Part shown: positions 5,438-58,272 of the stretch, piece after piece
Layout: each line of letters opens with the position of its first letter
How positions within the stretch are numbered: the first letter of the stretch is position 1
Notes under the pieces: model-generated
Seen by the model: only the letters and a program-made list of their open reading frames with translations
What the model was told of the DNA's origin: nothing
Databases searched by the model: none
Origin: Methylococcus sp. EFPC2
GTDB lineage: Bacteria > Pseudomonadota > Gammaproteobacteria > Methylococcales > Methylococcaceae
DNA: 64,000 nt
Reading direction: 5' to 3'
Assembly: GCF_016925495.1 (NCBI RefSeq)
Contig: NZ_CP070491.1
Coordinates: forward strand, 2,790,001-2,854,000
Program-made: the position numbers and the translations under genes

Positions 5438-6801
5438 GTCTTGGACTCTCGGCCCACGCTCAGGGCTTGTACGACGCGCTCCATGCGCTGGCTGCGCGAT
5501 CCCTTGACCAGGACGACGACGCCCGGCCGCACGGCTTGTTCGAGATGGCCGATCAGATCATCCTGATCGGCGAAATATTCGGCTCCCTCGCCGAAGGTCT
5601 CCACCGCCTTTTCGGCGAGGGAGCCTGTGGCATACAGGCGCGCCACTCCGCGCCGCTTGGCCTCCCGCCCCAATTCGGCGTGTAATCCGGCGCTGTCTGC
5701 GCCCAACTCGCCGAACGCGCCCAGGGCGATCCAGGGCTCGCCGGGCAGATCCAGCAGCACGTCCAGGGCGGCCGCGAAGGAGGACGGATTGGCGTTGTAG
5801 GTATCGTTGACGATCGAGGCGCCATGGCCGGTGTGCAGGAGTTGCAGGCGGCCGGGCACCGGCTTCACGCGCGACAGGCCTTCGGCGATCTGCTCCGGGC
5901 CTATGCCCAGCGCGTCCGCGACTGCGATCGCAGCCAACGCGTTGGCGACGTTGTGCCGCCCCGCCAAGCCCAGCCGTATGCTCTGACACCGGCCGGCCTG
6001 CTCATATTCGAAGCGGGTCTCGAAACCGTCCTCGCCGCAGGCCTGACCGATCGTTTCGGCCAAGCCGCGCACATCGGCGCCGGCGCCGAATCCGAAACTC
6101 TGCACGCGGCGCCGACCGGCGATTTCCCGCCACAGGCTGAAGAACGGATCGTCGGCGTTCAGCACGGCGATGCCTTCTGTGCCCAGGGCGGCGACGATCT
6201 CGCCTTTGGCTCGGGCCACACCCTCGCGGCTGCCGAACCCTTCCAGATGGGCGGAACCGGCATTGGTGATCACGGCAATCTCGGGCTGGGCCAGGCCGGC
6301 GACATATGCGATTTCGCCTGGGTGATTGGCACCCATCTCGATAACCGCGTAACGGTGTTCGGGGCGCAGGCCGAGCAAGGTCAACGGTACCCCGAGATCG
6401 TTGTTGAGGTTACCGCGCGTGCTCAGCACGGACGCGCCTACCCCGAGAATGGCGGCAATCATTTCCTTGACCGTGGTCTTGCCGTTGCTGCCGGTCAGGC
6501 CGACCACCCGGGCCCGCCGGCTCAGCCGCCAGGACTTACCCAACTGCCCCAGGGCCAGCCGGGTATCGGCGACCCGAATCTGCGGCAAATCACCGTCGAC
6601 CCAGCGTTCGACCACGGCCCCGCACGCGCCGCGATCGAACGCATCCGCGATGTAGGCATGGCCGTCGAAGCGCGGCCCGGTCAGTGCGAAAAACAAGTCT
6701 CTCGGCGCCAGGGTGCGGGAATCGATTCCGACCGTGGCGAATTCGCGGTCGGCGCCGCGCAGTTCGCCGCCGGTTAGGGCTGCCAGTTGGCTCAGGCGCA
6801 T
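5428..6801 (-). CDS. murF: UDP-N-acetylmuramoyl-tripeptide--D-alanyl-D-alanine ligase
   Basis: MurF adds D-Ala-D-Ala to complete the UDP-MurNAc-pentapeptide. The protein (457 residues) has the MurF-type N-terminal domain, the P-loop [16 protein letters not shown], the [15 protein letters not shown] motif specific to MurF, and [15 protein letters not shown] in the C-terminal part. It overlaps murE upstream and mraY downstream by 10 bp each, so the three genes are translationally coupled. Confidence 0.96.
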
Positions 6802-40417: not shown

Positions 40418-43400
40418 TCAAGACACGGTCAACTCGGCGAGCGGCCTGGGTTGGCCGGTATGGTAGCCCTGCGAGTAGTCGACACCGATTTCCCGCAGTT
40501 TCTCCAGTATCGCCTCGCTTTCCACATATTCGGCGATGGTCTTCATCCCCAGGGAATGGCCGATTTCGTTCATGGATTTGACCATGGCGTAATCGATGGG
40601 GCTATCGGCCAAATCCTTCACGAAGGAGCCGTCGATCTTGAGATAGTCCACGTGCAGGTTTTTCAGGTAGCCGTAGGACGACGACCCGCTGCCGAAGTCG
40701 TCGAGCGAGAATTTGCAGCCGTAACGGCGGATCTGGCGGATGAACTTCACCGCTTCGCCGAACTCGCCGATCGCCGCGGTTTCAGTCACTTCGAAGGTGA
40801 TTTTGCCCAGTGGCCAGTCGGCCGCGAGCAACTCGCCCTGCAAAAACTCCAGGAACGACAGGCTGGTGAGGGACTGCCCGGAAAGGTTGATGGAGAATCC
40901 TCCGACCGCGTCGAACTGCGCCCGGTTCCGCCGTATCCACTCGAAAGCCGAGTGCACCTGCCAGCGGTCGATTTCGGGCATGCGTTTCCACCGTTCGGCG
41001 GCCACGACAAAATCGTAGGGCGGAACCACCCTCCCCTCTTCGTCACGCAAGCCCAGCAATATTTCGTAATGACTGTGGCTGTCCCGCTCGGGAAAGACGG
41101 GAGCGATGAGTTGACAGCGAACGAACAGGGAGTCTTCGGCGAGCAGGCGGTCGATACGGCCGGCCCAATCCAACTGCTGCGCCTGTACTTTCAAGGCCGC
41201 ATCGTCCTCGGCGTAACTATGGATGTTGTTATGCCCCTGTTCCTTGGCGGTTACGAAAGCGGCGTCGGCTTGTTTCAGCACGGTATGGATACTTCCGGGC
41301 GGCACGAACGCCGCCAGGCCGATATGAGCCCCCGGCGCGAAATTGTGCTCGCCCCAGCGGAAATGGAAATCGGACAAGACGCCCAGCAAGGATTCCGCCT
41401 GCGCCTGTCCTTCCCTCCGGTCGACCCCGCTCAACCAAAAGCCGAACGCGTGATCGCCCATGCGCGCGAGTGGTACATGCGCCCCCAGATGAGCACCGAT
41501 CAGTTCGCCGGTCTCTCTTAGCAGGCGGTCGCCGGCCTCCATGCCGCAAAGATTGTTGATGACGCGAAACTGGGCGATGTCTACCAGCCCCAACGTGGCC
41601 TGCGCATTCATTCCTGCCCCGTCCATCTGGGTTCGCTCCAGCCGGCGAATGAACTCCTTGCGGTTGGCCAGGCCGGTGATGGGATCGTGAGTCGCCTGAT
41701 ACCGCAGCTTGTCCTGCATGGACTGGATCAAAGCTCCAGTCGTACGTTCCATTAAGGGGGCATCCAGGCTATCGGATTCGACGGCCTTGTTTTCTTGCAA
41801 GTAGCGGGAAAGCTCCCCCGCCGTGAGTTCGAGCACCTTGGCGCCCCTGCGGTTGACGAAAACGCAACGCCTGGGGTTACCGTCCATCCAGGTCAACTGT
41901 GCCGGCGTCCAGGAATCCGGAGTAAGGGCGAACTTGAACCAGTCGCCGACGCGGAACCGCCGCACGATGGCATCCTCTTCCGGCTCGGGCTCAGCGGATT
42001 TCGGGGGCACAGGAATGAACACCCACTCGGGCTCCGCCCGCTCGCCGGCCTCTCCCACTCCAAGCAACAAGTCGGCCAGCACCTCGATGATATGGTTTTG
42101 CTTCACCTGATCGGGGCAGACATAGACGAGTTGCTCGTCGATATAGTCGAGCAGCCGGTGCACGTCGCTGGCAGGCAGCCGCTCCCGGGGGTGATCACGG
42201 TCCAGCCAGATCTGCAGCTGATCCACCACCTGGATAGCTCGCCGCCATTCCCCGCTCTCCACGCCGTGACGCAGGGCAGCCAGTATCAGCCACCGGCGCC
42301 AGCCGGCTTCGAGCAACTCCGGCAACACCCGGGCCACGTATTTTCCGCCCAGGCGGGCGTCGATCGCGCGCTCGACCGCCCGATGCGAGTCCTCCGTGCG
42401 TTGCCGCGCCGCGCAAGTCTCCCGCAGCCGTTCCAGACGCAGATCGCGCGCCTTGATCAAGGGCTCCGCCAGCTTTTCCAACTCGGCGCGAGCCGAAATC
42501 AACACATCCGGCCGACCGGCGGATTCTCGGGCGATACGCTGGGTGATTTCATCCAATGCATGTTTCAACTGAGGCCACTTGATCTCGCCGCGGTCATCGG
42601 CCGCCAGGGAGAAATGATCCAGTACGTTGAGCACGTCACGGGCCGGATGCGTTTCCATATGCATCAGTCCGGGCGTGGCCAGTGCGCCTTCCAGCAAGGG
42701 GATTTGCAGTACCTGTAGGTAGCGTTTGATGTCCGCTGCCAGGGACTCTTCCTTGAGCGTGTTGTCCAGCAAAGCGCCGAGTACGTCCATCGCCTGCTTG
42801 TTTTCGTCGTTCGGCTGCAGACCCGCCTGCCCGGACGCCGCGAGAGCCTGCGACAACTCCGTCTCCAGAACATGTGGAGCGAGATAGTCGACTTGCTGGG
42901 CGAGTTTGCGGTGCTGGATTTCGCGCAAGGCGGCCTGCAGAGCCGCCGGGCTGACGGCGCCGGCCGGCGCCTGCTGAACGGCCTGCGGAGCGACGCCGCC
43001 CTGCGCCGGGGCGGTCAGGGTCATCAGCAGGCTGGCAGCATCCAGCGGCCCCGGATTGTGCTTTGCGGGAACGGCCGGCGCCGGGGTGTAAGGCTGGGGC
43101 GTGGACTTCTCGTGCTGCGATTCGGCCACGCGCTCCGGAACGACCGGCGCCGCCGGCTGCTCGGGCGCGTGAGCGGATGCCCGATGGACCGCTCTGGGCT
43201 GGATGGTGCTGGCGAGCGCGGATGTCCGCTCCAGCAGGCCGACATACAGGTTGGCCAACTGCGGGACCAAGGCGCGGGCGAAAGCCGCATAGATGACGCG
43301 TCTGGCCGGGACAGAAAAATCCAGGCCGTTCAGGCCGACGCGGAACGCCTCCAGCAATACGGCCGGCCCCAGCGGGTGCCGCTGGCCGGGGACCGAAGCG

Positions 43401-44158
43401 TCCCATGCCAGGCCGAGCCGGTCAGACAAGGTAACCAGACTGCTTTCGTAGCGATGTTCCAGCCGGGTTTGCTCTTCGGCCAGGCTGAGCCAATCGTCGA
43501 AAGACACCTTATCGACCAGCGACAATCCGCCCCGCTCCGCGGCAACCCGCCCGGACGCATCGAGGTATTGGGGAGCGCCTGCCTCGGGATGGTCGATCTG
43601 CCCGAGAAAACGGCGTTCGATATCGCCCCGGCTCTGCTCCAGCAAGGTCAAGGCGTCGAAAAACTCGGCCTGAGCCGCATTGGAGGGCGCTTTATCCGCC
43701 GCCTTGATGAGGGGCTGCCGGATGTCGGCGAAAAACGCGTCCAACACCGGCCGGACGATCATCTGCAAGTCTTGTTCGCAGCGTCGACGGATGGCTTCCG
43801 CCTCACCATGACCGGACGCGTGTTGGGCGCGACTCCGAGCGGCAGTATCCCGGTGCAAGGCCCGTACGGCCGCCGCAGCCGAAACGGGTTCCCGGAAGGC
43901 CAAGCCGACCCCTTGGGGGCTGACATGGGAGATGAGGCCTGCCAGTTGGAAGCTATGAGCATCGGCAGTCAGGCGAATTTCTACTTCGCGGACGGACAGG
44001 GCGCTCACCGTCTCGAGCGCCGGTCCGCCGCCCGCCAGCCACAGGAGCACACCGCCCTCGCAGAAATTTCGGATTTCGCCTGCCAGTTTGGCGACGCCGG
44101 GCAGGAATAGCGTTGCTTGCGCCACGGTGGCATGGCGCTCATATCGACGTTTGTTCAT
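40418..44158 (-). CDS. PilZ-DUF1631-GGDEF-EAL signalling protein
   Basis: A 1246-residue cytoplasmic protein. The N-terminus (RRYERHATVAQATLFLPG ...) resembles a PilZ c-di-GMP-binding fold, followed by a long helical DUF1631 region with a Pro/Ala-rich linker. The GGDEF domain begins near THDPITGLANRKEFIRRLE, but its active-site loop reads RMGDHAF (about residue 899) instead of RxGGDEF, so cyclase activity is unlikely. The EAL domain keeps EILLGL (a variant EAL), SINLSGQSL, FEVTETAAIG, LDDFGSGSSSYGYLK, LKIDGSFV and IAEYVES, so phosphodiesterase activity is plausible. ATG 44158 gives MNKRRYER; an open extension to 44239 adds no recognisable sequence. GspE follows directly. Confidence 0.85.
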   Translation of the reverse strand: MNKRRYERHATVAQATLFLPGVAKLAGEIRNFCEGGVLLWLAGGGPALETVSALSVREVEIRLTADAHSFQLAGLISHVSPQGVGLAFREPVSAAAAVRALHRDTAARSRAQHASGHGEAEAIRRRCEQDLQMIVRPVLDAFFADIRQPLIKAADKAPSNAAQAEFFDALTLLEQSRGDIERRFLGQIDHPEAGAPQYLDASGRVAAERGGLSLVDKVSFDDWLSLAEEQTRLEHRYESSLVTLSDRLGLAWDASVPGQRHPLGPAVLLEAFRVGLNGLDFSVPARRVIYAAFARALVPQLANLYVGLLERTSALASTIQPRAVHRASAHAPEQPAAPVVPERVAESQHEKSTPQPYTPAPAVPAKHNPGPLDAASLLMTLTAPAQGGVAPQAVQQAPAGAVSPAALQAALREIQHRKLAQQVDYLAPHVLETELSQALAASGQAGLQPNDENKQAMDVLGALLDNTLKEESLAADIKRYLQVLQIPLLEGALATPGLMHMETHPARDVLNVLDHFSLAADDRGEIKWPQLKHALDEITQRIARESAGRPDVLISARAELEKLAEPLIKARDLRLERLRETCAARQRTEDSHRAVERAIDARLGGKYVARVLPELLEAGWRRWLILAALRHGVESGEWRRAIQVVDQLQIWLDRDHPRERLPASDVHRLLDYIDEQLVYVCPDQVKQNHIIEVLADLLLGVGEAGERAEPEWVFIPVPPKSAEPEPEEDAIVRRFRVGDWFKFALTPDSWTPAQLTWMDGNPRRCVFVNRRGAKVLELTAGELSRYLQENKAVESDSLDAPLMERTTGALIQSMQDKLRYQATHDPITGLANRKEFIRRLERTQMDGAGMNAQATLGLVDIAQFRVINNLCGMEAGDRLLRETGELIGAHLGAHVPLARMGDHAFGFWLSGVDRREGQAQAESLLGVLSDFHFRWGEHNFAPGAHIGLAAFVPPGSIHTVLKQADAAFVTAKEQGHNNIHSYAEDDAALKVQAQQLDWAGRIDRLLAEDSLFVRCQLIAPVFPERDSHSHYEILLGLRDEEGRVVPPYDFVVAAERWKRMPEIDRWQVHSAFEWIRRNRAQFDAVGGFSINLSGQSLTSLSFLEFLQGELLAADWPLGKITFEVTETAAIGEFGEAVKFIRQIRRYGCKFSLDDFGSGSSSYGYLKNLHVDYLKIDGSFVKDLADSPIDYAMVKSMNEIGHSLGMKTIAEYVESEAILEKLREIGVDYSQGYHTGQPRPLAELTVS

Positions 44159-44335
44159 GAGACATCCCGGTAACAATGTTCCCTTGCCGGCGTTTAGAAC
44201 CGGACGAACGAACGGCGTCGACTCGACTACCCCATGCAACTGCGGTAGGCCAGCCGCCTCGCCCCACTATAACTTAGCCAACTTGCCGGCGCTGTGTAAA
44301 AATACCGCGCGTTCTGCCCGGCCTGCCCGCAACGC

Positions 44336-44362
44336 GCAACTTTTCCCCGCGACCGTGTCTAA
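44336..44362 (+). promoter_or_regulatory. Possible ECF-sigma promoter of the hvfABC-like cluster
   Basis: GCAACTT (44336-44342) and GTCTAA (44357-44362) are 14 bp apart, resembling the GGAACTT-N15-GTCTAA pattern of RpoE/ECF sigma factors. It lies 51 bp before the precursor gene. Related hvf clusters are often under ECF control, but the match is imperfect and no sigma gene is adjacent. The remaining part of the 255-bp divergent gap shows no clear sigma70 promoter. Confidence 0.35.
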
Positions 44363-44413
44363 CCGGAGCGTGACGCTACCCCCTTAGTTCACCACACGAG
44401 AGGTTAATCTCCC

Positions 44414-44758
44414 ATGAAGAAACTCGACAAAAAACCGCTGGCCGCCCTCGTCGGCGCTACCTTCGTCGGCACCTTGTCGGCCGGCGTGGTCACCGCGGCA
44501 GAAAATCCCTTCGCCCTGAAGGAACTGAACTCCGGTTACAACCAGGTCGCCGCCGCCGAAACCGCCAAGGAAAAGAAGGAAACCGCCTGCGGCGAAGGCA
44601 AGTGCGGCGCCGAGATGATGAAGCAACACGACATGAAATGCGGCGCCGGCATGACGGGAGCGAAAGACGATAAGGCCGCGCTCAAGAAAGCGACCGAAAG
44701 CAAGTGCGCCGGAATGACTACGGACAAGGCGCCGGCTCAACCTCCCAAAGCGCCCTGA
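44414..44758 (+). CDS. HvfA-like Cys-containing RiPP precursor (predicted metallophore)
   Basis: A 114-residue exported peptide: Sec signal with core LAALVGATFVGTLSAGVV and cleavage near residue 28, then the ENPFALKELNSGYNQVA segment seen in HvfA-type precursors, then a low-complexity Lys/Ala/Glu/Gly tail. The tail holds four cysteines in CGEGKCG, MKCGAG and SKCAGM contexts; EGKCG is the motif known in Haemophilus HvfA to be converted to an oxazolone/thioamide copper ligand. The maturase genes follow after 8 bp. The precursor call is firm from context; the actual modification is inferred. Confidence 0.85.
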   Translation: MKKLDKKPLAALVGATFVGTLSAGVVTAAENPFALKELNSGYNQVAAAETAKEKKETACGEGKCGAEMMKQHDMKCGAGMTGAKDDKAALKKATESKCAGMTTDKAPAQPPKAP

Positions 44759-44766
44759 GTTAGGCG

Positions 44767-45651
44767 ATGATCGGGCCGGTTATCCGGCCTGCTTTTACCG
44801 CCATGAAACCGGGACTGACATCGATACGCGGCGCGGGCTTGGGATTGCGCCGTGTTTTCGCGGCAGAAATCGTCGCTCACCCGCCCGCGCGGGTCGACTT
44901 CTACGAAGTCGCGCCGGAAAACTGGATGCATGTCGGCGGCCGGTTGGGGAAGCAGTTCCGCGCCCTGACCGAGGCCCACACCATCGTCTGCCATGGCTTG
45001 TCGCTATCGCTGGGCGGCACGGCGGCCCTGGACGAAGAGTTTCTAGGCGATCTGCGCGATTTCCTCATCCTCCATGGAATCGGGATCTACAGCGAACACC
45101 TGAGCTACTGCGGCGATGACGGCCTGCTCTACGACCTCATGCCCATCCCTTTCACCGAAGAAGCCGTGATCCATACGGCCCGCCGCATCCGCCACACTCA
45201 GGAAATACTCGAGCGGCGCATCGCCATCGAAAATATCTCGTACTACGCGGCACCGGGCCAGGAAATGGCCGAGATCGACTTCCTCAACGCCGTGCTGCAA
45301 GAGGCCGATTGCGACCTGTTGCTGGACATCAACAACATCCACGTCAACGCGGTCAACCACGCTTACGACGCCGCACGATTCCTCGCCCGCATACCGGCCG
45401 ACCGCATCGTCTACGCCCACATCGCCGGCCACTACGTGCAGGCGCCCGACTTACTGGTCGACACCCACGGCGCGCCGGTGATCGACCCGGTTTGGGCCTT
45501 GCTGGAGCAAGCCTACGCCCTCCACGGTGTATTCCCCACCCTGCTGGAGCGTGACTTCAACATTCCGCCGCTGGCCGACCTGCTGGCCGAAGTGGACACC
45601 ATCCACGCCATACAGCAAAACGCGATGACACCGCTTCGCCGCCATGGCTGA
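44767..45651 (+). CDS. HvfB-like MNIO maturase (DUF692)
   Basis: A multinuclear non-heme iron oxidative enzyme of the DUF692 TIM-barrel family, about 294 residues. Metal-ligand motifs are visible in order: [63 protein letters not shown] and [10 protein letters not shown]. These enzymes oxidise cysteines of RiPP precursors. ATG 44767 is only 8 bp after the precursor stop; ATG 44803 ([17 protein letters not shown]) is an alternative that fits the family N-terminus. The 3' end overlaps the next gene by 8 bp. Confidence 0.9.
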
Positions 45652-46399
45652 CACCGGTTTCCGGCACACCCAACAGGCATTCACCGCCTATCTACGCAAC
45701 CCGGCGCGGCAAGCACCGCCGGAGGACGTGGCTCCCGAGCGCATCGGACTCTACCGGGAGCTATTCCTCAATAATGTATTAAGCGCCCTGGAAAGCGGTT
45801 TCCCGGTGCTGAATCAGACGTTGGAGTCCGAGTCATGGCAGGCTTTGGCGGAAGACTTCTTCGCCCGCCACCGCAGCCGCACACCTTATTTCTACGGCAT
45901 ACCGGAAGAATTCCTGCGCTACCTGCACGACGAGCGGGAAGGCCAGGTCGACGATCCGCCCTACCTGCTCGAACTGGCGCATTACGAATGGGTGGAACTA
46001 GCACTGGCCATCGCCACGGACGACGCGCCGGAGGAACGACCGGAATTGGCCGAGAACCCGCTAAACGCCGTCATCGCGCTGTCCCCCGTCGCCTGGCCGC
46101 TCGCCTACCGCTTTCCGGTCCAGCGCATCGGCCGCGACTACCGACCGCAACAGCCGCCCGCCGTATCCACTTGCCTTGCGGTCTACCGCGACCGCAGCGA
46201 CCGGGTACACTTCCTTGAGTTGGCTCCGCTCACCTACCGCTTGCTTCAACTCCTGCAGGAACAGGGCCCGCTCCCGTCGGCGGACTGTTTCGCACGCCTC
46301 GCGGACGAAGCGGGTCTGTCCGACCCCCACGCGCTGCTCGAGCATGGCCAGGGTTTGTTGCGTGACTTGCACGCGCGCGGCGTGATCGGACTGGCATAA
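45644..46399 (+). CDS. HvfC-like RiPP maturation partner (DUF2063)
   Basis: A 251-residue protein with the N-terminal DUF2063 domain ([62 protein letters not shown]) and a C-terminal region that in this family acts as the precursor-recognition element and partners the MNIO enzyme. It overlaps hvfB by 8 bp, so the two are made together. The DoxX-like hvfD found in other clusters is absent; unrelated genes follow. Confidence 0.88.
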
Positions 46400-46552
46400 G
46401 CATCTCGCTCGCCAGCGTGCGCCCACGTCCCGTCGCCCCCTGAGACGGCACGAGACAGTTGCCGGATGGAAACGGCTACGCCCGCCCTTGCTTTTCCTCA
46501 CACGCGCTAGGATTATTCTCCCGCCTGTCGATTCAATTCAGAGGAGACGACC

Positions 46553-46813
46553 ATGAACATCCCGAGTGAGATAACAAAACTGAGAGACGGCTTGCTGCAG
46601 CAGCGCGACGAACTCAAAGTGCAACTGAATCTGGCACGGATGGAGGCGAGGGAAGAGTGGGAGAAAGCGGAGGCGAAACTGGAGCAACTGGCCGATAAGG
46701 TCGAAGGTGTTGGCGCCGAAGCCAAGGATGCCTCGGAAGATATCTGGGAAAGCGCGAAATCATTGGGCGAAGAAATCAAAAACGCCTACGAGCGCATCAA
46801 AAAACAGCTTTGA
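46553..46813 (+). CDS. Small coiled-coil protein of unknown function
   Basis: An 86-residue highly charged helical protein (QLNLARMEAREEWEKAEAKL, KDASEDIWESAKSLGEEIK) without signal peptide or cysteines. Start ATG 46553 has GAGGAGACGACC upstream, a strong ribosome-binding site. Similar small apolipoprotein-like helical proteins are common and may respond to envelope or osmotic stress, but no function is established. Confidence 0.75.
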   Translation: MNIPSEITKLRDGLLQQRDELKVQLNLARMEAREEWEKAEAKLEQLADKVEGVGAEAKDASEDIWESAKSLGEEIKNAYERIKKQL

Positions 46814-48322: not shown

Positions 48323-49939
48323 ATGAATTACAAAACCATAAGCAGACTATTTTTTTGGGCGCTGGCGCTCACGCTGGCGTTCGCCTCAATCGCCCGGGCG
48401 GCCACGCCCGACATTCAGGACCTGAAGAGCAGTTACTACAAGGACCATCCCGGCAAGGGGAAACACGGTCAGTACTGGGAACCGATCCCGATCCAGAAAT
48501 ACTGGAATCCCAAGGATTTCTATAAGCCGCCAGCTACAGTGCAGGGCGAAAAGACCAGCGCGGAATGTACGACCTGTCATCAGGCACTGACTCCCGGCGC
48601 TTACCACGCCTGGAAGACCAGCGTGCACGCCAACCTGGACAACATCCGCAACCTGAGCAACGGCGCGGACGCCCGCTACTACAAGAAACAAAAGCTGGAA
48701 GAAGTCGAGCAGAACCTGCGCAAGCAGGGGCTGCTGGCCGAAGGCGAACCGCTCAAGGAAGTCGGCTGTATCGACTGTCACGGCGGCGTCGGCGCCAAAT
48801 CGGTCGACCACGGCAAGAAGCTGGTGATGCCGGACCGCGCCGCCTGCGGCACCTGCCACGTCGACCAGTTCGCGGAATCCGAAGCGGAGAAGAAGCAGGA
48901 ATGGCCGCAAGGCCAATGGCCCAAGGGACACCCTTCGCATGCCCAGGACTGGAAAGCCAACGTCGAAACGGCCATCTGGGCCGGCATGCCGGAGCGCGAA
49001 ATCGCCCAGGGCTGCGACATGTGCCATTACCAGCAGAACAAGTGCGACGGCTGCCACACCCGGCACAGCTTCTCGGTCGCCGAGGCCCGCCAGCCGGAAG
49101 CCTGCGCCACCTGCCACAACGGCGTCGACCACAACGAATACGAAAACTTCCAGCTATCCAAGCACGGCACGATTTATCAGACCCTGGGCAAGGCCAAGTG
49201 GAATTTCGAAGCGCAGTTGAAGGATGCCGTGACCAAGGGCGGCTATACCGCGCCGACCTGCCAGTACTGCCACTTCGAATTCGAGGGCGAGTTCTCCCAC
49301 AACCTGGTGCGCAAGGTGCGCTGGGGCTTCAACCCGACGACTGCCATCGCCGACAACCTGAACCACCCCTGGTTCCAGGACCGCAAGGAAGCCTGGCAGA
49401 AGACCTGCGAGAACTGCCATTCCGCCAGCTTCGCGGAGGCCTATCTGACCACGGCCGACAAGGGCACGATCTCCGGCCTCAAGGTCGAGCAGGAAGCCAA
49501 GAAGGTGGTCGAAGCGCTACATAAGGACGGCCTGTTGCCCGGCCAGAAAACCAACCGCCCTGCCCCGCCCGCACCGGAAAAAGACGCCGCCGGCGGTTTC
49601 TTCCAGTTGTTCTGGGCCAAGGGCAATAACCCGAGCGCGGTCGAGCGCGTGCATGCCGACATGTGGGAGCACGACCTGATCAAGCTGTACAAGGGCCTGT
49701 TCCACGCCAATCCGGGCGGGTTCACCTACACCGAAGGCTGGTCCGAGTTGATGAAGGACTACACTCTGATCATGGACGAGAACACCAAGCTGCGCGAAGG
49801 CAAGAGCCACACCAGCCAGGCCGAACCGGAAGCCAAGTCGATACGCCAGGCCTTCATCGACGACTTGAGCAACCGCTACGTGCTGGGAACCGCCCTGGCC
49901 GGCGCAGGCATCATCGTGATCCGCCGCCGCAGACGCTAA
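48323..49939 (+). CDS. haoA: Octaheme hydroxylamine oxidoreductase HaoA
   Basis: A periplasmic multiheme cytochrome of 538 residues that oxidises hydroxylamine. There is a Sec signal (FFWALALTLAFASIARA) and exactly eight CxxCH heme motifs between about residues 82 and 366: CTTCH, CIDCH, CGTCH, CDMCH, CDGCH, CATCH, CQYCH and CENCH. The tyrosine-rich segment after the last heme (FTYTEGWSELMKDYTLIMDE) is where HAO enzymes carry the tyrosine cross-linked to the P460 heme; which Tyr it is I cannot fix. A C-terminal helix (LGTALAGAGIIVI) with an Arg tail would anchor it to the membrane. HaoB follows after 8 bp. Confidence 0.93.
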   Translation: MNYKTISRLFFWALALTLAFASIARAATPDIQDLKSSYYKDHPGKGKHGQYWEPIPIQKYWNPKDFYKPPATVQGEKTSAECTTCHQALTPGAYHAWKTSVHANLDNIRNLSNGADARYYKKQKLEEVEQNLRKQGLLAEGEPLKEVGCIDCHGGVGAKSVDHGKKLVMPDRAACGTCHVDQFAESEAEKKQEWPQGQWPKGHPSHAQDWKANVETAIWAGMPEREIAQGCDMCHYQQNKCDGCHTRHSFSVAEARQPEACATCHNGVDHNEYENFQLSKHGTIYQTLGKAKWNFEAQLKDAVTKGGYTAPTCQYCHFEFEGEFSHNLVRKVRWGFNPTTAIADNLNHPWFQDRKEAWQKTCENCHSASFAEAYLTTADKGTISGLKVEQEAKKVVEALHKDGLLPGQKTNRPAPPAPEKDAAGGFFQLFWAKGNNPSAVERVHADMWEHDLIKLYKGLFHANPGGFTYTEGWSELMKDYTLIMDENTKLREGKSHTSQAEPEAKSIRQAFIDDLSNRYVLGTALAGAGIIVIRRRRR

Positions 49940-49947
49940 AGGATCGC

Positions 49948-50949
49948 ATGGAGTCATCGAAAGTCGGGCGCCCAGGCTTCGGTCTCAAGACCGTCCTGGG
50001 CGCCGCCCTCATCCTGGCCGGCCTGGGCATCGCGCTGTTCGGCGTGCCGCCCTGGCCTTACCAGCACGATTTGAGCTTCAAACAAGTCGAGGAATTGAAG
50101 CCCGGCGATCCGGGCTTCCCGACCTTGAACGCATCCTACCCGGCGGAGAGCCTCCGCCGTTATCGCGTAACCCAGGGTGAAACGGCCTCGCTGACCCTGG
50201 ACGTGGTGCGCTACCGCAAGGATGGCGACACCCGCAGCGCGATTATTCATCTCGGCGACGAGCCATCCTCGTCTGCCCCGAACTCCAAAAAGATACGCCA
50301 AGAGCTGTGGACTTCCGCCATGGAAGCCGTCAACAAGCACACGGATGAAAAAGCCTTGTTTCTAAGCTGGTGGGACGACGCCCAGCGCATCGACTTCTCC
50401 ACCGGCCGCAACACCTGGACGCGGGTTCCCACCGCCGCGGCTTTCGGCGGCGACCCGGAAAAGCGTCTATGGGAAGCGGTGACGGGACCATACGCCGCGG
50501 ACGAAACGCGTCTGCGCCAACTGGCCAACTGGCTGGCCATGGATGCGGGTGCAGCGCTGGCCGAGATGGCCAAGGCACTGCCGGCCGACACGCCGGTCTA
50601 TTTTCTGGCCTGCCTGGACGATCTGGCCCGCGTGAGCGAGGTCGAAAGACTTTCCGGCAAAAAGCTGGGCTTCGAAGCCGCCCTATTCCCCGCCTCCGGC
50701 GACATGCACGGCCAGATCGCGGCCGTTAAGCGTTGGGCGGGCGAAAAAGGCAGCGGCAATTATCTGGTGCAACAGATACCCGGCCAGGGCATCCGCGCCT
50801 GGCGCATCACCGATGCCGCCACGGAAAACACGCTGCTCGCCAAGCTGCTGCCCTTCACCGGTTCGCTGGCCAATCCCGTTCCCGGACTCGAAACGGTCTA
50901 CCAATCCCCCTGGGGCGGCTATCTCACCATCTTTCAGTGGCAACGCTGA
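49948..50949 (+). CDS. haoB: Hydroxylamine oxidation protein HaoB
   Basis: A 333-residue protein encoded directly after haoA, as in methanotrophs and ammonia oxidisers. One N-terminal transmembrane helix (VLGAALILAGLGIALFG) is followed by a periplasmic domain with FLSWWDDAQRIDFSTGR and YLVQQIPGQGIRAWRI. Its precise role is unknown; it is taken to help HaoA assemble or anchor. ATG 49948 (MESSKVGRPGFGLKT) is 8 bp after the haoA stop. A transposon lies 17 bp after its stop. Confidence 0.9.
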   Translation: MESSKVGRPGFGLKTVLGAALILAGLGIALFGVPPWPYQHDLSFKQVEELKPGDPGFPTLNASYPAESLRRYRVTQGETASLTLDVVRYRKDGDTRSAIIHLGDEPSSSAPNSKKIRQELWTSAMEAVNKHTDEKALFLSWWDDAQRIDFSTGRNTWTRVPTAAAFGGDPEKRLWEAVTGPYAADETRLRQLANWLAMDAGAALAEMAKALPADTPVYFLACLDDLARVSEVERLSGKKLGFEAALFPASGDMHGQIAAVKRWAGEKGSGNYLVQQIPGQGIRAWRITDAATENTLLAKLLPFTGSLANPVPGLETVYQSPWGGYLTIFQWQR

Positions 50950-50966: not shown

Positions 50967-52078
50967 TTAACCCGGCCAAATAATACCGTACTGAGTCTGG
51001 TAAAATTCGAGCATGGAAGCAGAACGAATCGATACTCGAAAACTGGAGCCGGCGGCACGAGAGCAATTGCGCCGTACGGTCATCCGCTTGCACCGGCGAG
51101 GGCATAGCCAGGCGGCGATTGCGCGGGAGTTGGGTTTGCGCCGTCCCACGGTGACGCTCTGGCTGCTTAAAGCCGAAGCCGGGCATGGCGTGAAAGAGGC
51201 CCAGCGTGGTCGGCCCGCAGGCAACGGTCGCCGTCTCACGCCCGCTCAGGAAAGCGTTCTCCAGAAAGACCTGGTGGACAAAACGCCGGATCAAGTGAAA
51301 CTGCGCTTCGCCTTATGGAGTGCGCAGGCGGTGCGAGCGCATATCCAGGCGTGTTTTGGGCTGAACCTGCCAGTGCGCTCGGTCAGAAACTATCTGAAGC
51401 GCTGGGGATTCACGCCGCAGCGCCCGCTCAAACGCGCCTTCGAGCAACGACCGGCGGCGGTGCAAAAGTGGCTCACAGAGGACTACCCAGCCATCGCCCA
51501 ACGGGCCAAGGCCGAAGGGGCGGAAATTTGCTGGGGCGATGAAACCGCTGTCAGTTCGGTCGAGCATTATCCGCGCGGTTACGCGCCGCGCGGCAAAACG
51601 CCGGTGCTGGTGTTGTCCCAGTCCAAGCGGGAGCGCATCAACCTCATCTCCGCCATCACCAACCAAGGGAAGATGCGCTTCATGATGTATCGAGAAACGC
51701 TCACCGCCGATGTCTTCATCCAGTTTCTCCAGCGCCTGGTCCGTGAGGCGGGGCGCAAGGTGTTTCTGGTCCTCGACAACCTGCGGGTTCATCACAGCCA
51801 AACGGTCAAAGCATGGCTGGCAGACAAAACCGACCAGATCGAGCTGTTTTTCCTACCCAGCTATTCCCCTGAACTCAATCCGGACGAATACCTCAATGCC
51901 GACCTCAAGGCACGGATGAGTGCCGCCGAACCCGTGCGCGACGGCTCTCACCTGAAGCGCAAGGTGACTTCGCACCTGCGTTCGATCCAGAAACAGCCCG
52001 CCCGCATCCGCGCCTACTTCAAAGCCGCCCCCATCAAGTACGCCGCTTAGAACGTACGGTATTTTATGGCCGGGTTAA
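50967..52078 (+). mobile_element. Complete IS630-family insertion sequence
   Basis: The element is 1112 bp. Its 25-bp terminal inverted repeats (50967-50991 and 52054-52078) begin TTAACCCGGCCA and match at 23 of 25 positions. Both ends are flanked by TA (50965-50966 and 52079-52080), the duplication made by IS630/Tc1-mariner elements. One transposase gene fills the interior. It looks intact and recent. Confidence 0.93.
51013..52050 (+). CDS. IS630 family transposase
   Basis: A 345-residue DDE transposase. The N-terminal helix-turn-helix (GHSQAAIARELGLRRPTVTL) binds the terminal repeats; the catalytic residues appear in ICWGDETAVSS, FLVLDNLRVHHSQ and SPELNPDEYLNADLK. There is no frameshift or stop, so the single-frame protein is probably active. 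It begins 46 bp inside the left end of the element. Confidence 0.95.
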   Translation: MEAERIDTRKLEPAAREQLRRTVIRLHRRGHSQAAIARELGLRRPTVTLWLLKAEAGHGVKEAQRGRPAGNGRRLTPAQESVLQKDLVDKTPDQVKLRFALWSAQAVRAHIQACFGLNLPVRSVRNYLKRWGFTPQRPLKRAFEQRPAAVQKWLTEDYPAIAQRAKAEGAEICWGDETAVSSVEHYPRGYAPRGKTPVLVLSQSKRERINLISAITNQGKMRFMMYRETLTADVFIQFLQRLVREAGRKVFLVLDNLRVHHSQTVKAWLADKTDQIELFFLPSYSPELNPDEYLNADLKARMSAAEPVRDGSHLKRKVTSHLRSIQKQPARIRAYFKAAPIKYAA

Positions 52079-55618: not shown

Positions 55619-56719
55619 TTAGAGCCGCATGGGCATGACGATGGACTTGTAGCGCGGATTGAGCGGGTCTTCTATCAGGCAGCTGCTGGCGGTTTCGGTG
55701 AAAGACAGCCTGACGGTGTCGGAGTCGATGTTGTTCGCCGCATCGAGCAGGTAAGCCGCGTTGAAACCGACCTCGAAGGGCTCGCCTTCAAGCCGGATTT
55801 CGATTTCCTCCTCGGCCTGATCGTGCTCCGGGTTCTGAGCCGAAAGCTTGAGGGTTTCCGCGCTCAAATCCAGGGCGACGCCGCGGAACTTGTCGGCAGC
55901 CAGAATGGATACGCGGGTGAGCGCAGCCTTGAGGGCATCTTTTTCGACCGTGACCACGCGCGCGATTTGTGCGGGCATGACGCGGCGGTAGTCGGGAAAG
56001 CGTCCCTCGATCAACTTGGCGGCGAAGCTGAGATCGGCCAGCGTGAGCCGGATATTGTTGGCGGAGATCTGTACGGTAATCGGACTCTCATCGTCCCGAA
56101 TCAGCCGGTAAAGCTCCAGCACGCCCTTGCGCGGAATGATGACCTGGCGGGACGGCAAGCCCAGGCCGGCCACATTTTCCTCAAACAGCGCCAGGCGATG
56201 GCCGTCCGAAGCCACGGTGCGCAGGGTGTCGCCGTCGAGGTCCAGCAGCAGGCCATTGAGGTAATAGCGCACGTCCTGCTGGGCCATGGCGAACAGGGTC
56301 TTCTCCATCGCCTGCTTCAACAGTCCGCCCGCCAGGGTAAATTCCACTTCGGCCTGCCCGGCATCGAATACCGGGTAGTTTTCCGCCGGCAAGGTGGCGA
56401 GGCTGAACCGGCTGCGCCCGGACTGCAAGCTCAGCTTGTCGTCTCCCACTTCGATCTTGAGCACGCCGCCTTCCGGCAGGGTGCGGCAGATGTCCAGCAG
56501 CTTGCGCGCCGGGGCGGTGAACTCGCCTTCCTCGCCGGACTCCGTGAGCGTATGGGTGACGAGCTGGACTTCCAGGTCGGTGCCGACGAGCTCCAGGCGA
56601 TCTCCGTTGAGGCGCGCCAGGACATTGGCCAGGATGGCCATGGTCTGGCGTTTTTCGATCACGCCGATCACTTGCTGTAACGGGGTCAGGAGGTTTTCTC
56701 GGGAGATCGCGAATTTCAT
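55619..56719 (-). CDS. dnaN: DNA polymerase III subunit beta (sliding clamp)
   Basis: The 366-residue clamp subunit, dimer of three-domain monomers around DNA. MKFAISRENLLTPLQQVIGV at the N-terminus, NVAGLGLPSRQVIIPRKGVL in the middle and the C-terminal IVMPMRL are diagnostic. It lies 40 bp after dnaA on the same strand. No recF or gyrB follows; the DUF4136 gene begins instead, so the usual dnaA-dnaN-recF-gyrB order is broken. Confidence 0.97.
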   Translation of the reverse strand: MKFAISRENLLTPLQQVIGVIEKRQTMAILANVLARLNGDRLELVGTDLEVQLVTHTLTESGEEGEFTAPARKLLDICRTLPEGGVLKIEVGDDKLSLQSGRSRFSLATLPAENYPVFDAGQAEVEFTLAGGLLKQAMEKTLFAMAQQDVRYYLNGLLLDLDGDTLRTVASDGHRLALFEENVAGLGLPSRQVIIPRKGVLELYRLIRDDESPITVQISANNIRLTLADLSFAAKLIEGRFPDYRRVMPAQIARVVTVEKDALKAALTRVSILAADKFRGVALDLSAETLKLSAQNPEHDQAEEEIEIRLEGEPFEVGFNAAYLLDAANNIDSDTVRLSFTETASSCLIEDPLNPRYKSIVMPMRL

Positions 56720-56759
56720 CGGCAGCGGCCTTGCGTGGGTGTGGGTTCGTGCGTCCGGT

Positions 56760-58091
56760 TCAGTTGGCGAGGATGCGCATCAGGTTGGAATAGTCTTCCA
56801 GGAACTTGGCGTCGCTATCCTTGAGCTCCTGCACCTTGCGGGTCGCATGGAGCACCGTGGTATGGTCGCGCCCGCCGAACATCTGGCCGATCTCCGGCAG
56901 GCTGTGACTGGTCAACTCCTTGGCCAAGGCCATGGCGATCTGGCGCGGTCGGGTCACGGTACGGGTGCGCTTGTTGGAAAGCAGATCGGAGACCCGGATC
57001 TTGAAATATTCCGACACCGTCTTCTGGATGTTGTCGACATTGATCATGCGGTCCTGCAGGGCGATCAGGTCGCGCAACGACTCCTTGGCGAACTCCAGGG
57101 TGATGGGTTTGCCGGTGAAATGGGCGTTGGCGATGACCCGTCGCAGCGCGCCTTCCAACTCGCGGATGTTGGAACGTATGCGCTTGCCGATGAAGAACGC
57201 GACTTCCGGCGACAGCTCCGCGCCGACGTGCTGCGCCTTGCTCATGAGAATGGCGACGCGCGTTTCCAGATCGGGCGGTTCGACCGCCACGGGCAGGCCC
57301 CAACCGAAACGGGATTTCAACCGCTCTTCCAGTCCCTTGATTTCCTTGGGATAGCGGTCGCAAGTCAGCACCACCTGATGCTTGTTCTCCAGCAAGGTGT
57401 TGAAGGTGTGGAAAAACTCTTCCTGCGAGCGCTCCTTGCCGGCGAAGAACTGGATGTCGTCGATCAGCAGCGCGTCGACAGTCCGGTAATACTCCTTGAA
57501 CGCGTTGATGGCATTGTGTTGCAGCGCCTTGACCATGTCCGAGACGAAACGCTCGGAGTGCAAGTAGACGATGTTGCTGCCGGGGTTGCCCCTGAGGATC
57601 TCGTTGCCGATGGCATGCATCAAATGGGTCTTGCCCAGGCCCGAACCGCCGTAGATAAACAGCGGGTTATAGGCGCGGCCGACGTTTTGCGCGACCTGCA
57701 GCGAAGCCGCTTTGGCCAGCTGGTTGGACTTGCCCTCGACGAAATTGTCGAAAGTGAACGCCGCGTTGAGATTGTTGGGCTGCTGCTTGCGCGTGGCGGC
57801 CGTTTTGCGCGCCGTCGGCAGTTTGCTTTCGGACCGCGGAACCTCCGCCGGGCGGGTGCCGATTTCGAGCAGAACCCGCAGCGGCGGCTGCGCCTTTTGC
57901 TGCGCGACCACCTCCTCGATCTTCTCGAAGAAATGTTGCTTGACCCAGTCCAGCACGAAGCGGTTGGGCGCGAGCAGCTTGAGCTCGCTGTCGTCCTCCA
58001 CGGCTTGCAAGGGGCGGATCCAGGTATTGAACTGCTGGGGCGGCAACTCGCCTTCCAATTTGCTTAAGCATGCGCTCCACAGCTTAGTCAT
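56760..58091 (-). CDS. dnaA: Chromosomal replication initiator DnaA
   Basis: DnaA binds 9-bp boxes at oriC and opens the duplex. The 443-residue protein has domain I ([20 protein letters not shown]), Walker [18 protein letters not shown], Walker [15 protein letters not shown] and the domain IV signature [19 protein letters not shown] 58091 (MTKLWSACL) matches family starts; the frame is open to 58238 but that would cross the intergenic DnaA box. Confidence 0.97.
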
Positions 58092-58186
58092 GGTAGGGAG
58101 TCTCGCGGCGACGGAACGAAAGGACGTGTAACAAGATGGACGGGGGGATGGAAGACCAGGGCGAACAACTATACAGCAAGCCTGGT

Positions 58187-58195
58187 TTATCCACA
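58187..58195 (+). promoter_or_regulatory. DnaA box, perfect consensus
   Basis: TTATCCACA in the dnaA-rpmH gap, 4 bp before the rpmH -35 box. A single perfect box here could serve dnaA autoregulation or form part of oriC; I find no second perfect box nearby. Confidence 0.75.
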
Positions 58196-58198
58196 GCA

Positions 58199-58228
58199 TT
58201 GACAGTCGATTAGCTTGTGGCTTAGGAT
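58199..58228 (+). promoter_or_regulatory. Sigma70 promoter of rpmH-rnpA-yidD-yidC
   Basis: TTGACA (58199-58204) and TAGGAT (58223-58228) with an 18-bp spacer. Transcription would start about 40 bp before the rpmH ATG. The -35 box is 4 bp from the DnaA box, so DnaA binding could affect it. Confidence 0.7.
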
Positions 58229-58272
58229 TCGCGGTCATTTTTCCCCCGCCAGCCCTTTCAGGTATGTGACCG

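Follow-up and report, generated by a model that had tools for sequence, protein, structure and literature searches.

Loci that pair an MNIO enzyme with a PME1 partner number over 24,000, and three groups of captophorin precursors, DUF2282, Lys-Cys and Cys-Lys, are distinguished (PMC12668002). EGKCG precursors, about 2,000 in number, were described as two types, and mention was also made of small precursors, hundreds of them, that contain 1 to 18 Cys and were left unclassified (PMC12452194). Fontiphorin, oxazolin and gonophorin, the products of the fon, hvf and ngo clusters, contain 5-thiooxazole formed with the loss of 4 H per Cys (PMC12668002), and this revision of the HvfA chemistry was accepted by the HvfB authors (PMC13419390); the oxazolone/thioamide ligand given for HvfA in an earlier note on this DNA is therefore outdated. 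Copper binding was reported for these three products (PMC13419390, PMC12668002) and for bulbicupramide of Microbulbifer (PMC12538549), and whether EGKCG products bind copper in an ordered or random manner was left open (PMC12668002).

The hvfABC locus and its host

The window, by which we mean the whole stretch of 64,000 nucleotides analysed from Methylococcus sp. EFPC2, carries on its + strand three ORFs, encoding a precursor peptide of 114 aa (44414..44758), a DUF692/MNIO enzyme (longest ORF 44767-45651) and a DUF2063/RRE partner of PME type 1 (45644..46399), whose start codon (ATG, 45644) lies before the end of the MNIO stop (45651), so that the two ORFs share 8 bp. Order, strand and place were as the earlier note had them, and its assignment of the cluster to the HvfABC type was borne out by curated family models for all three genes. 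The enzyme scored 338.9 bits against PF05114 and, as the longest ORF, 417.7 bits against the HvfB model NF003818 (cut-off 360 bits). The partner matched DUF2063 (PF09836, 88.5 bits) and the NGO1945 C-terminal domain (PF22106, 99.5 bits), and exceeded the cut-off of the HvfC model NF050145 (291.7 versus 142 bits). Residues 56-83 of the precursor passed NF050137, the KCGExKCG 'HvfA family' domain (31.2 versus 19.5 bits); as the precursor reached 20 of the 95 bits of the HvfA equivalog NF050188, it is not filed as HvfA itself. It had no Pfam match at E 0.1, hence none of the C-terminal EF-hand domains described for Buf_EGKCG type 2 (PMC12452194). The pass against NF050137, together with the finding of related precursors ahead of this MNIO in 34 of 37 loci, marks it as more than a chance ORF. 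The MNIO, the PME1 partner and the Cys-rich precursor with Lys-Cys 5-mers, by which the Lys-Cys group of captophorins is recognised (PMC12668002), are all present, Lys preceding Cys in three of the four sites and Ala in one. A methanobactin enzyme was rejected (32 of 325 bits with the MbnB model TIGR04159, and an HvfC-type partner), as was a bufferin (259.6 of 310 bits with the BufB model NF050167, and a precursor matching neither DUF2282 nor BufA2).

The host genome (4.56 Mb, three contigs, estimated as 100% complete) contains two genes of the PmoA/AmoA family (PF02461), found with equal score by profile search. These, and best enzyme matches that were mostly from Methylococcales, support well the presumption in the earlier note that the host is a methanotroph. 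Three MNIO genes were found in the genome, including that of the window, and none matched the MbnB model. The other two lie in bufferin loci: in L001 a BufA2 precursor (NF050166, 88 of 60 bits) has a zinc-finger protein and an ECF sigma factor as neighbours, and in L002 a DUF2282 precursor (PF10048, 78 bits) precedes the MNIO, its partner and DoxX. The genome thus appears to hold one captophorin locus of each precursor group.

The accessory DoxX-like gene, named hvfX (PMC13419390), was found in none of the 37 Methylococcaceae loci when loci of a few kb were searched by phmmer with a single DoxX query from a bufferin locus, a search that diverged or distant copies may escape; the same query found DoxX in the loci of four of the best 80 named matches. 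The only PF07681 (DoxX) match in the host genome, at C1:2603120, is inside a bufferin locus. The missing accessory gene, which the earlier note called hvfD, does not set the cluster apart, since no DoxX was found in any of the 37 loci and the characterised fon cluster also lacks it (PMC12668002). Four neighbouring genes in the window were tested, and none occurred in more than three of the 37 loci (the window's own included); judging by these loci, the conserved unit is hvfABC.

Other genes of the window were noted in passing. The divergent neighbour of the precursor gene encodes a DUF1631-GGDEF-EAL protein of 1273 aa (40418-44239, - strand), the like of which was present in three of the 37 loci, with the window's own counted in. 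Downstream lie a hydroxylamine-oxidoreductase-like multihaem cytochrome (48323-49939, +; PF13447, 489.7 bits) and, directly after it, an ORF without Pfam match (49954-50949), which from its position we take to be possibly HaoB. A DDE_3 transposase with winged-helix domains (51013-52050, +) and dnaN with dnaA (55619-58238, -) were also present; the replication origin may be close.

Enzyme, cysteine sites and upstream elements

The eight-letter distance between precursor and enzyme given in the earlier note holds for the longest ORF, which begins at ATG 44767. The likelier start is probably ATG 44803, 44 bp after the precursor, yielding an enzyme of 282 aa (44803..45651, +). In five relatives with the fixed-site precursor layout described below (L005, L007, L009, L018 and L024), the enzyme can start no earlier than 43-58 bp past the precursor stop. 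The L005 enzyme matches that of the window from residue 2, and L005 has no in-frame start codon before its position 6049. A terminator-like hairpin, with an 8-bp stem containing one G-U pair, a TTAT loop and TTTT, occupies 44772..44796 (+) between the two genes. On account of these distances, the L005 limit and the hairpin, ATG 44767 was rejected as the likely start. The hairpin is not significant alone (five terminator-like sites in the region against 2.8 expected, sd 2.0). Similar stems were recognised by eye and folding in G003, G011, G019, G025, G029, G033 and G036, the T-runs being weaker in G003 and G029; the automated scan chose another pairing for the window, and its tail rule excluded G003 and G029. 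That scan found a hairpin in ten of 34 loci, where shuffles gave an expectation of 4.2, and the hairpin was rejected as a family-wide feature.

The model of the enzyme (pLDDT 85.8) had 3BWW as its best PDB match, followed by TglH and MbnB. The iron ligands of VcMbnB are H55, H91, E135, D165, N168, H194, D209 and E238, with H211 named for Fe3 (PMC8888699). Counted along a phmmer alignment to 7DZ9, seven of these nine and the base D240 align with identical residues of the window enzyme; for the remaining two ligands we take H64 and H99, both aligned to His residues of 3BWW. The resulting set, H64, H99, E143, D175, N178, H206, D220, H222 and E249 with the catalytic D251, was invariant in all 18 aligned relatives; the check for replaced DUF692 iron ligands proposed in the earlier note thus left all nine intact. 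N175, D242 and H244 of HvfB, each required for activity (PMC13419390), we take by motif position to be N178, D220 and H222 here. Arg15, Arg16 and Phe250 of FonB mark the Lys-Cys group, and Asp249 is its base (PMC12668002); by motif, FonB itself being unaligned, they correspond to R16, R17, F252 and D251, and the Arg-Arg and Phe markers were likewise found in 18 of 18 aligned enzymes.

The precursor has an N-terminal Sec-type signal, judged by eye, the leader ENPFALKELNSGYNQVA and four Cys (C59, C64, C76 and C98); its predicted structure is mostly unstructured and of low confidence (pLDDT 50). Read as 5-mers with Cys at position 4, the sites are ETACG (C59, 44579..44593), EGKCG (C64, 44594..44608), DMKCG (C76, 44630..44644) and ESKCA (C98, 44696..44710), all on the + strand. 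The first two stand in tandem, DMKCG follows at a distance of 12 residues and ESKCA after another 22. The earlier note had counted one EGKCG and three variants, correctly, but its readings ACGEG, MKCGAG and SKCAGM are out of register.

The substrate rules of FonBC bear on its suggestion that the variants alter product or specificity. In its substrates position 3 may be Ala, Arg or Thr, and position 5, besides Gly, only Ala; every non-Pro residue tried at position 1 or 2 was accepted, apart from Arg at 1, as was DGKCG, whereas substrates with a charged residue after Cys were left unprocessed (PMC12668002). All four window sites fit these rules, Met at position 2 of DMKCG not being named among the residues tried in that source; acceptance of Ala at 3, Ala at 5 and DGKCG accounts for ETACG and ESKCA, and partly for DMKCG. 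The sites in register being mostly within FonBC tolerance, the suggestion is not supported, although the isolated position of two of them may matter. FonBC modified a two-repeat substrate and not a one-repeat substrate (PMC12668002); if that rule carried over, modification would be confined to C59 and C64, since sites 3 and 4 stand alone.

Set beside the characterised systems, the locus resembles that of oxazolin from Haemophilus influenzae, HvfABC(X), in its MNIO, DUF2063/RRE partner, Sec-signal precursor and EGKCG-type sites, and differs in having one tandem pair and two isolated sites where HvfA has three AEGKCGEGKCG units (PMC13419390), in the missing hvfX and in a precursor that falls below the HvfA equivalog model. 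It shares with fonABC of Fontimonas thermophila the minimal three genes without DoxX, the Arg-Arg and Phe residues and the 5-mer sites, whereas FonA has seven modified sites grouped by two or three (PMC12668002), against four here with two isolated. The mmrABC cluster for bulbicupramide is likewise a three-gene cluster with conserved leader, EGKCG units and Cu(I) binding, the last predicted here, but its precursor has five to eight Cys in cassettes (PMC12538549). The bufferins BufA1 and BufA2 have in common with it an MNIO with DUF2063-type partner and Sec-exported peptides with spaced Cys; theirs, however, are DUF2282 or Cys-Lys precursors, and the window enzyme falls below the BufB model. 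Methanobactin (MbnABC) shares the MNIO fold and iron site and is unlike it in enzyme model, partner (HvfC-type here), oxazolone/thioamide chemistry and role in copper uptake.

Upstream of the precursor, comparison across the family revealed an ECF/sigma-E-like promoter element, GCAACTT-N14-GTCTAA (44336..44362, +). With a spacer of 14 and at least ten of 13 matches, 25 of the 34 family regions compared contain it, 24 at a similar place (G024 having it elsewhere), and ten lack it at that place; in 23 of the 34, the best match was reached by at most five of 100 dinucleotide shuffles of 150 bp. In a separate comparison, scores were 11-13 in the five named loci with the fixed-site layout and did not exceed 9 in 38 loci without it. 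Since the motif derives from the sequences in which it was counted, these figures are descriptive. With at most one mismatch, the element occurred once in the host genome (reversed control 4); its core AACTT-N14-GTCTAA also occurred once (control 1). No broad regulon was found there at that stringency. A sigma-70 consensus scan found no promoter within 44100-46700. One RpoE over the cut-off and ten weaker matches were found in the genome, none within the 64-kb window. The Neisseria sigma-E consensus has -10 CGTCTAAH and a spacer of 12-13 nt, that of E. coli being GGAACTT with TCAAA, and the homologous Neisseria operon, which contains rpoE and a DoxX-like gene, is sigma-E controlled, like msrAB (PMC2893595); its identity as a captophorin operon follows from that of NGO1945 and NgoC. 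The window operon may be under ECF control. Further upstream, a distal element resembling an extended -10, TGTGTAAAAAT (44293..44303, +; family form TGTGTGAGAATA), recurred upstream of 26 of 34 family precursors, as found with a pattern of our own applied without control, and may also act as a promoter.

Conservation in the Methylococcaceae

The MNIO was present in all 36 same-family relatives searched, with best E values of 4e-102 or lower; the nearer of the host's own bufferin enzymes gave 4e-61 in that search. With the window's own, this gave 37 Methylococcaceae loci from 15 genus codes, of which 36 contained the partner (phmmer) and 34 a recognisable precursor upstream of the MNIO. Around the 124 Cys of these 34 precursors, position -3 was Glu in 117, Asp in 3, Gln in 3 and Pro in 1, and position +1 was Gly in 86, Ala in 34 and Ser or Asn in 4. 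A fixed-site layout, non-repetitive and built of three or four shared Cys sites flanked by Met-rich sequence, was recognised by pattern in 31 of 37 loci. The exceptions were G001, for which no precursor was found, G010, whose precursor is truncated, G012 and G020, which have lost the middle site, G015, with another precursor, and G022, with one Cys. The MNIO is present in the loci of G001, G010 and G022 (L133, L126 and L151), to whose precursor state assembly gaps may contribute; these three have no precursor row and stand outside the upstream, promoter and site tables of 34 rows.

Of the 246 core Met, 224 lie within five residues of a Cys, against a shuffle mean of 120 (33 rows, G015 with its other precursor type being left out of this count and of the precursor alignment), a figure inflated by shared descent. 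Twelve Methylococcaceae precursors have three Cys without any tandem pair, which suggests that the two-repeat rule fails in this family.

Methylococcales methanotrophs supplied most of the best 80 named enzyme matches (63-72% identity); Pseudoalteromonas, Thiogranum, Thiohalobacter and Nitrosomonas supplied a few. The fixed-site pattern occurred in the loci of five of the 80 matches (L005, L007, L009, L018 and L024), four of which are probably already counted among the Methylococcaceae loci. A class-wide profile search matched 106 of 369 genomes, with 3e-45 and 1e-39 for the two family genomes and 6e-18 for the best match outside; none of the 28 outside-family loci drawn from it (L158-L185) showed the pattern, 27 having a repeat-type precursor and L165 none that was extracted. 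Two of these precursors (L182 and L184) were seen by eye to have an internal, EF-hand-like DxDxDG stretch between EGKCG blocks, not C-terminal. We do not claim a single origin of the fixed-site type: a quick tree had a weak backbone and implied five label changes (two states) or six (four groups). It left out L005, L007, L018, L024 and L053, probably the same loci as G029, G036, G011, G006 and G020, and four named rows with a stop inside the aligned stretch.

Compared by their descriptions, neither of the two EGKCG types (PMC12452194) appears to fit the fixed-site type, though the unclassified small precursors mentioned there may include it, and no description of it was found in literature listings on methanotroph MNIO, Methylococcaceae DUF692 and methanotroph DUF2063. 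Going by these comparisons, the kind of system is already known and its Methylococcaceae fixed-site version would be mildly new.

Proposed function and alternatives

The locus is probably a three-gene captophorin operon of the HvfABC/fontiphorin type, of a fixed-site subtype, directing synthesis of a periplasmic Cu(I)-sequestering peptide. HvfA would be made with its Sec signal and the conserved leader ENPF..KEL..GY.QVA. HvfC, probably binding the precursor through its RRE-like domain, would help HvfB to its active mixed-valent diiron state, and HvfB would oxidise in the cytoplasm each Cys of [E/D]-x-x-Cys-[G/A], with loss of 4 H, to 5-thiooxazole; modification of all four Cys predicts a total of -16 Da. 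Exported through Sec to the periplasm, the modified HvfA would bind Cu(I) with its thiooxazole thiols, perhaps with the Met beside each Cys, and so sequester it under metal or envelope stress. The gene order, families, intact active site, specificity residues and site conservation on which this scheme builds were observed; the 5-thiooxazole, the partner requirement and the Cu(I) binding, known in relatives, we infer here by analogy, and the ECF-type promoter, the participation of Met and sequestration rather than uptake are likewise put forward as predictions. As an interpretation, the copper-binding peptide of the earlier note is thereby supported.

The peptide could also be stress-protective with a main ligand or task other than copper, such as other soft metals or the scavenging of oxidants by thiooxazole thiols and Met. 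The ECF/sigma-E-like element and the sigma-E control that the homologous Neisseria operon shares with msrAB (-10 CGTCTAAH, PMC2893595) are in keeping with this, and responses to gold and, in gonococci, to peroxide were mentioned (PMC12452194, PMC2893595). Meningococci, however, gave no peroxide response (PMC2893595), and the copper binding reported for fontiphorin, gonophorin, oxazolin and bulbicupramide (PMC12668002, PMC13419390, PMC12538549) speaks against this reading, which we judge improbable. A chalkophore, released and bringing copper to the particulate methane monooxygenase as a stand-in for methanobactin, would suit a methanotroph that has two PmoA-family genes and in which the models detected no methanobactin MNIO, and the presence of the MNIO in all 36 same-family relatives searched. 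Yet no transport gene travels with the operon (four neighbours tested, each in at most three of 37 loci), the same system occurs in relatives outside the methanotrophs, and the frequent inducer of the class is excess heavy metal, not copper starvation (PMC12668002). The missing transport gene and the inducer together make uptake less likely than sequestration, even though a relative in Microbulbifer was not induced by copper (PMC12538549), and we consider the chalkophore unlikely; the copper theme of the earlier note is sensible, yet the known relatives are linked to sequestration and detoxification, not to methanobactin-like uptake. Decay of the cluster, suggested by variant motifs and few Cys, with a single canonical EGKCG here, one Cys in G022, a truncated precursor in G010 and none found in G001, was rejected as most improbable, since the layout is kept in 31 of 37 loci across 15 genus codes and enzyme and partner are intact.

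Several observations count against the captophorin reading itself: six of 37 loci depart from the pattern, the precursor falls below the HvfA equivalog, ten of 34 upstream regions lack the promoter-like element at its place, two sites are isolated, and a related cluster in Microbulbifer went undetected under copper and protected E. coli little (PMC12538549). A further-reaching proposal, which we hold doubtful, is that the Methylococcaceae captophorins form a separate fixed-site class, in which every one of the three or four Cys would have a conserved place and Met neighbours of its own: a stoichiometric Cu(I) binder with mixed thiooxazole/thioether ligands, an MNIO that accepts isolated sites and its own single-target ECF promoter, by which periplasmic copper would be held or handed on beside the particulate methane monooxygenase.

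Copper drives methane oxidation in methanotrophs, and to our knowledge periplasmic copper handling in those without methanobactin is poorly known. With its enzyme in all 36 same-family relatives searched, hvfABC is a good candidate for this task, and its low, fixed number of sites makes testable both the need of MNIOs for tandem repeats and whether copper is bound in an ordered or a random manner.
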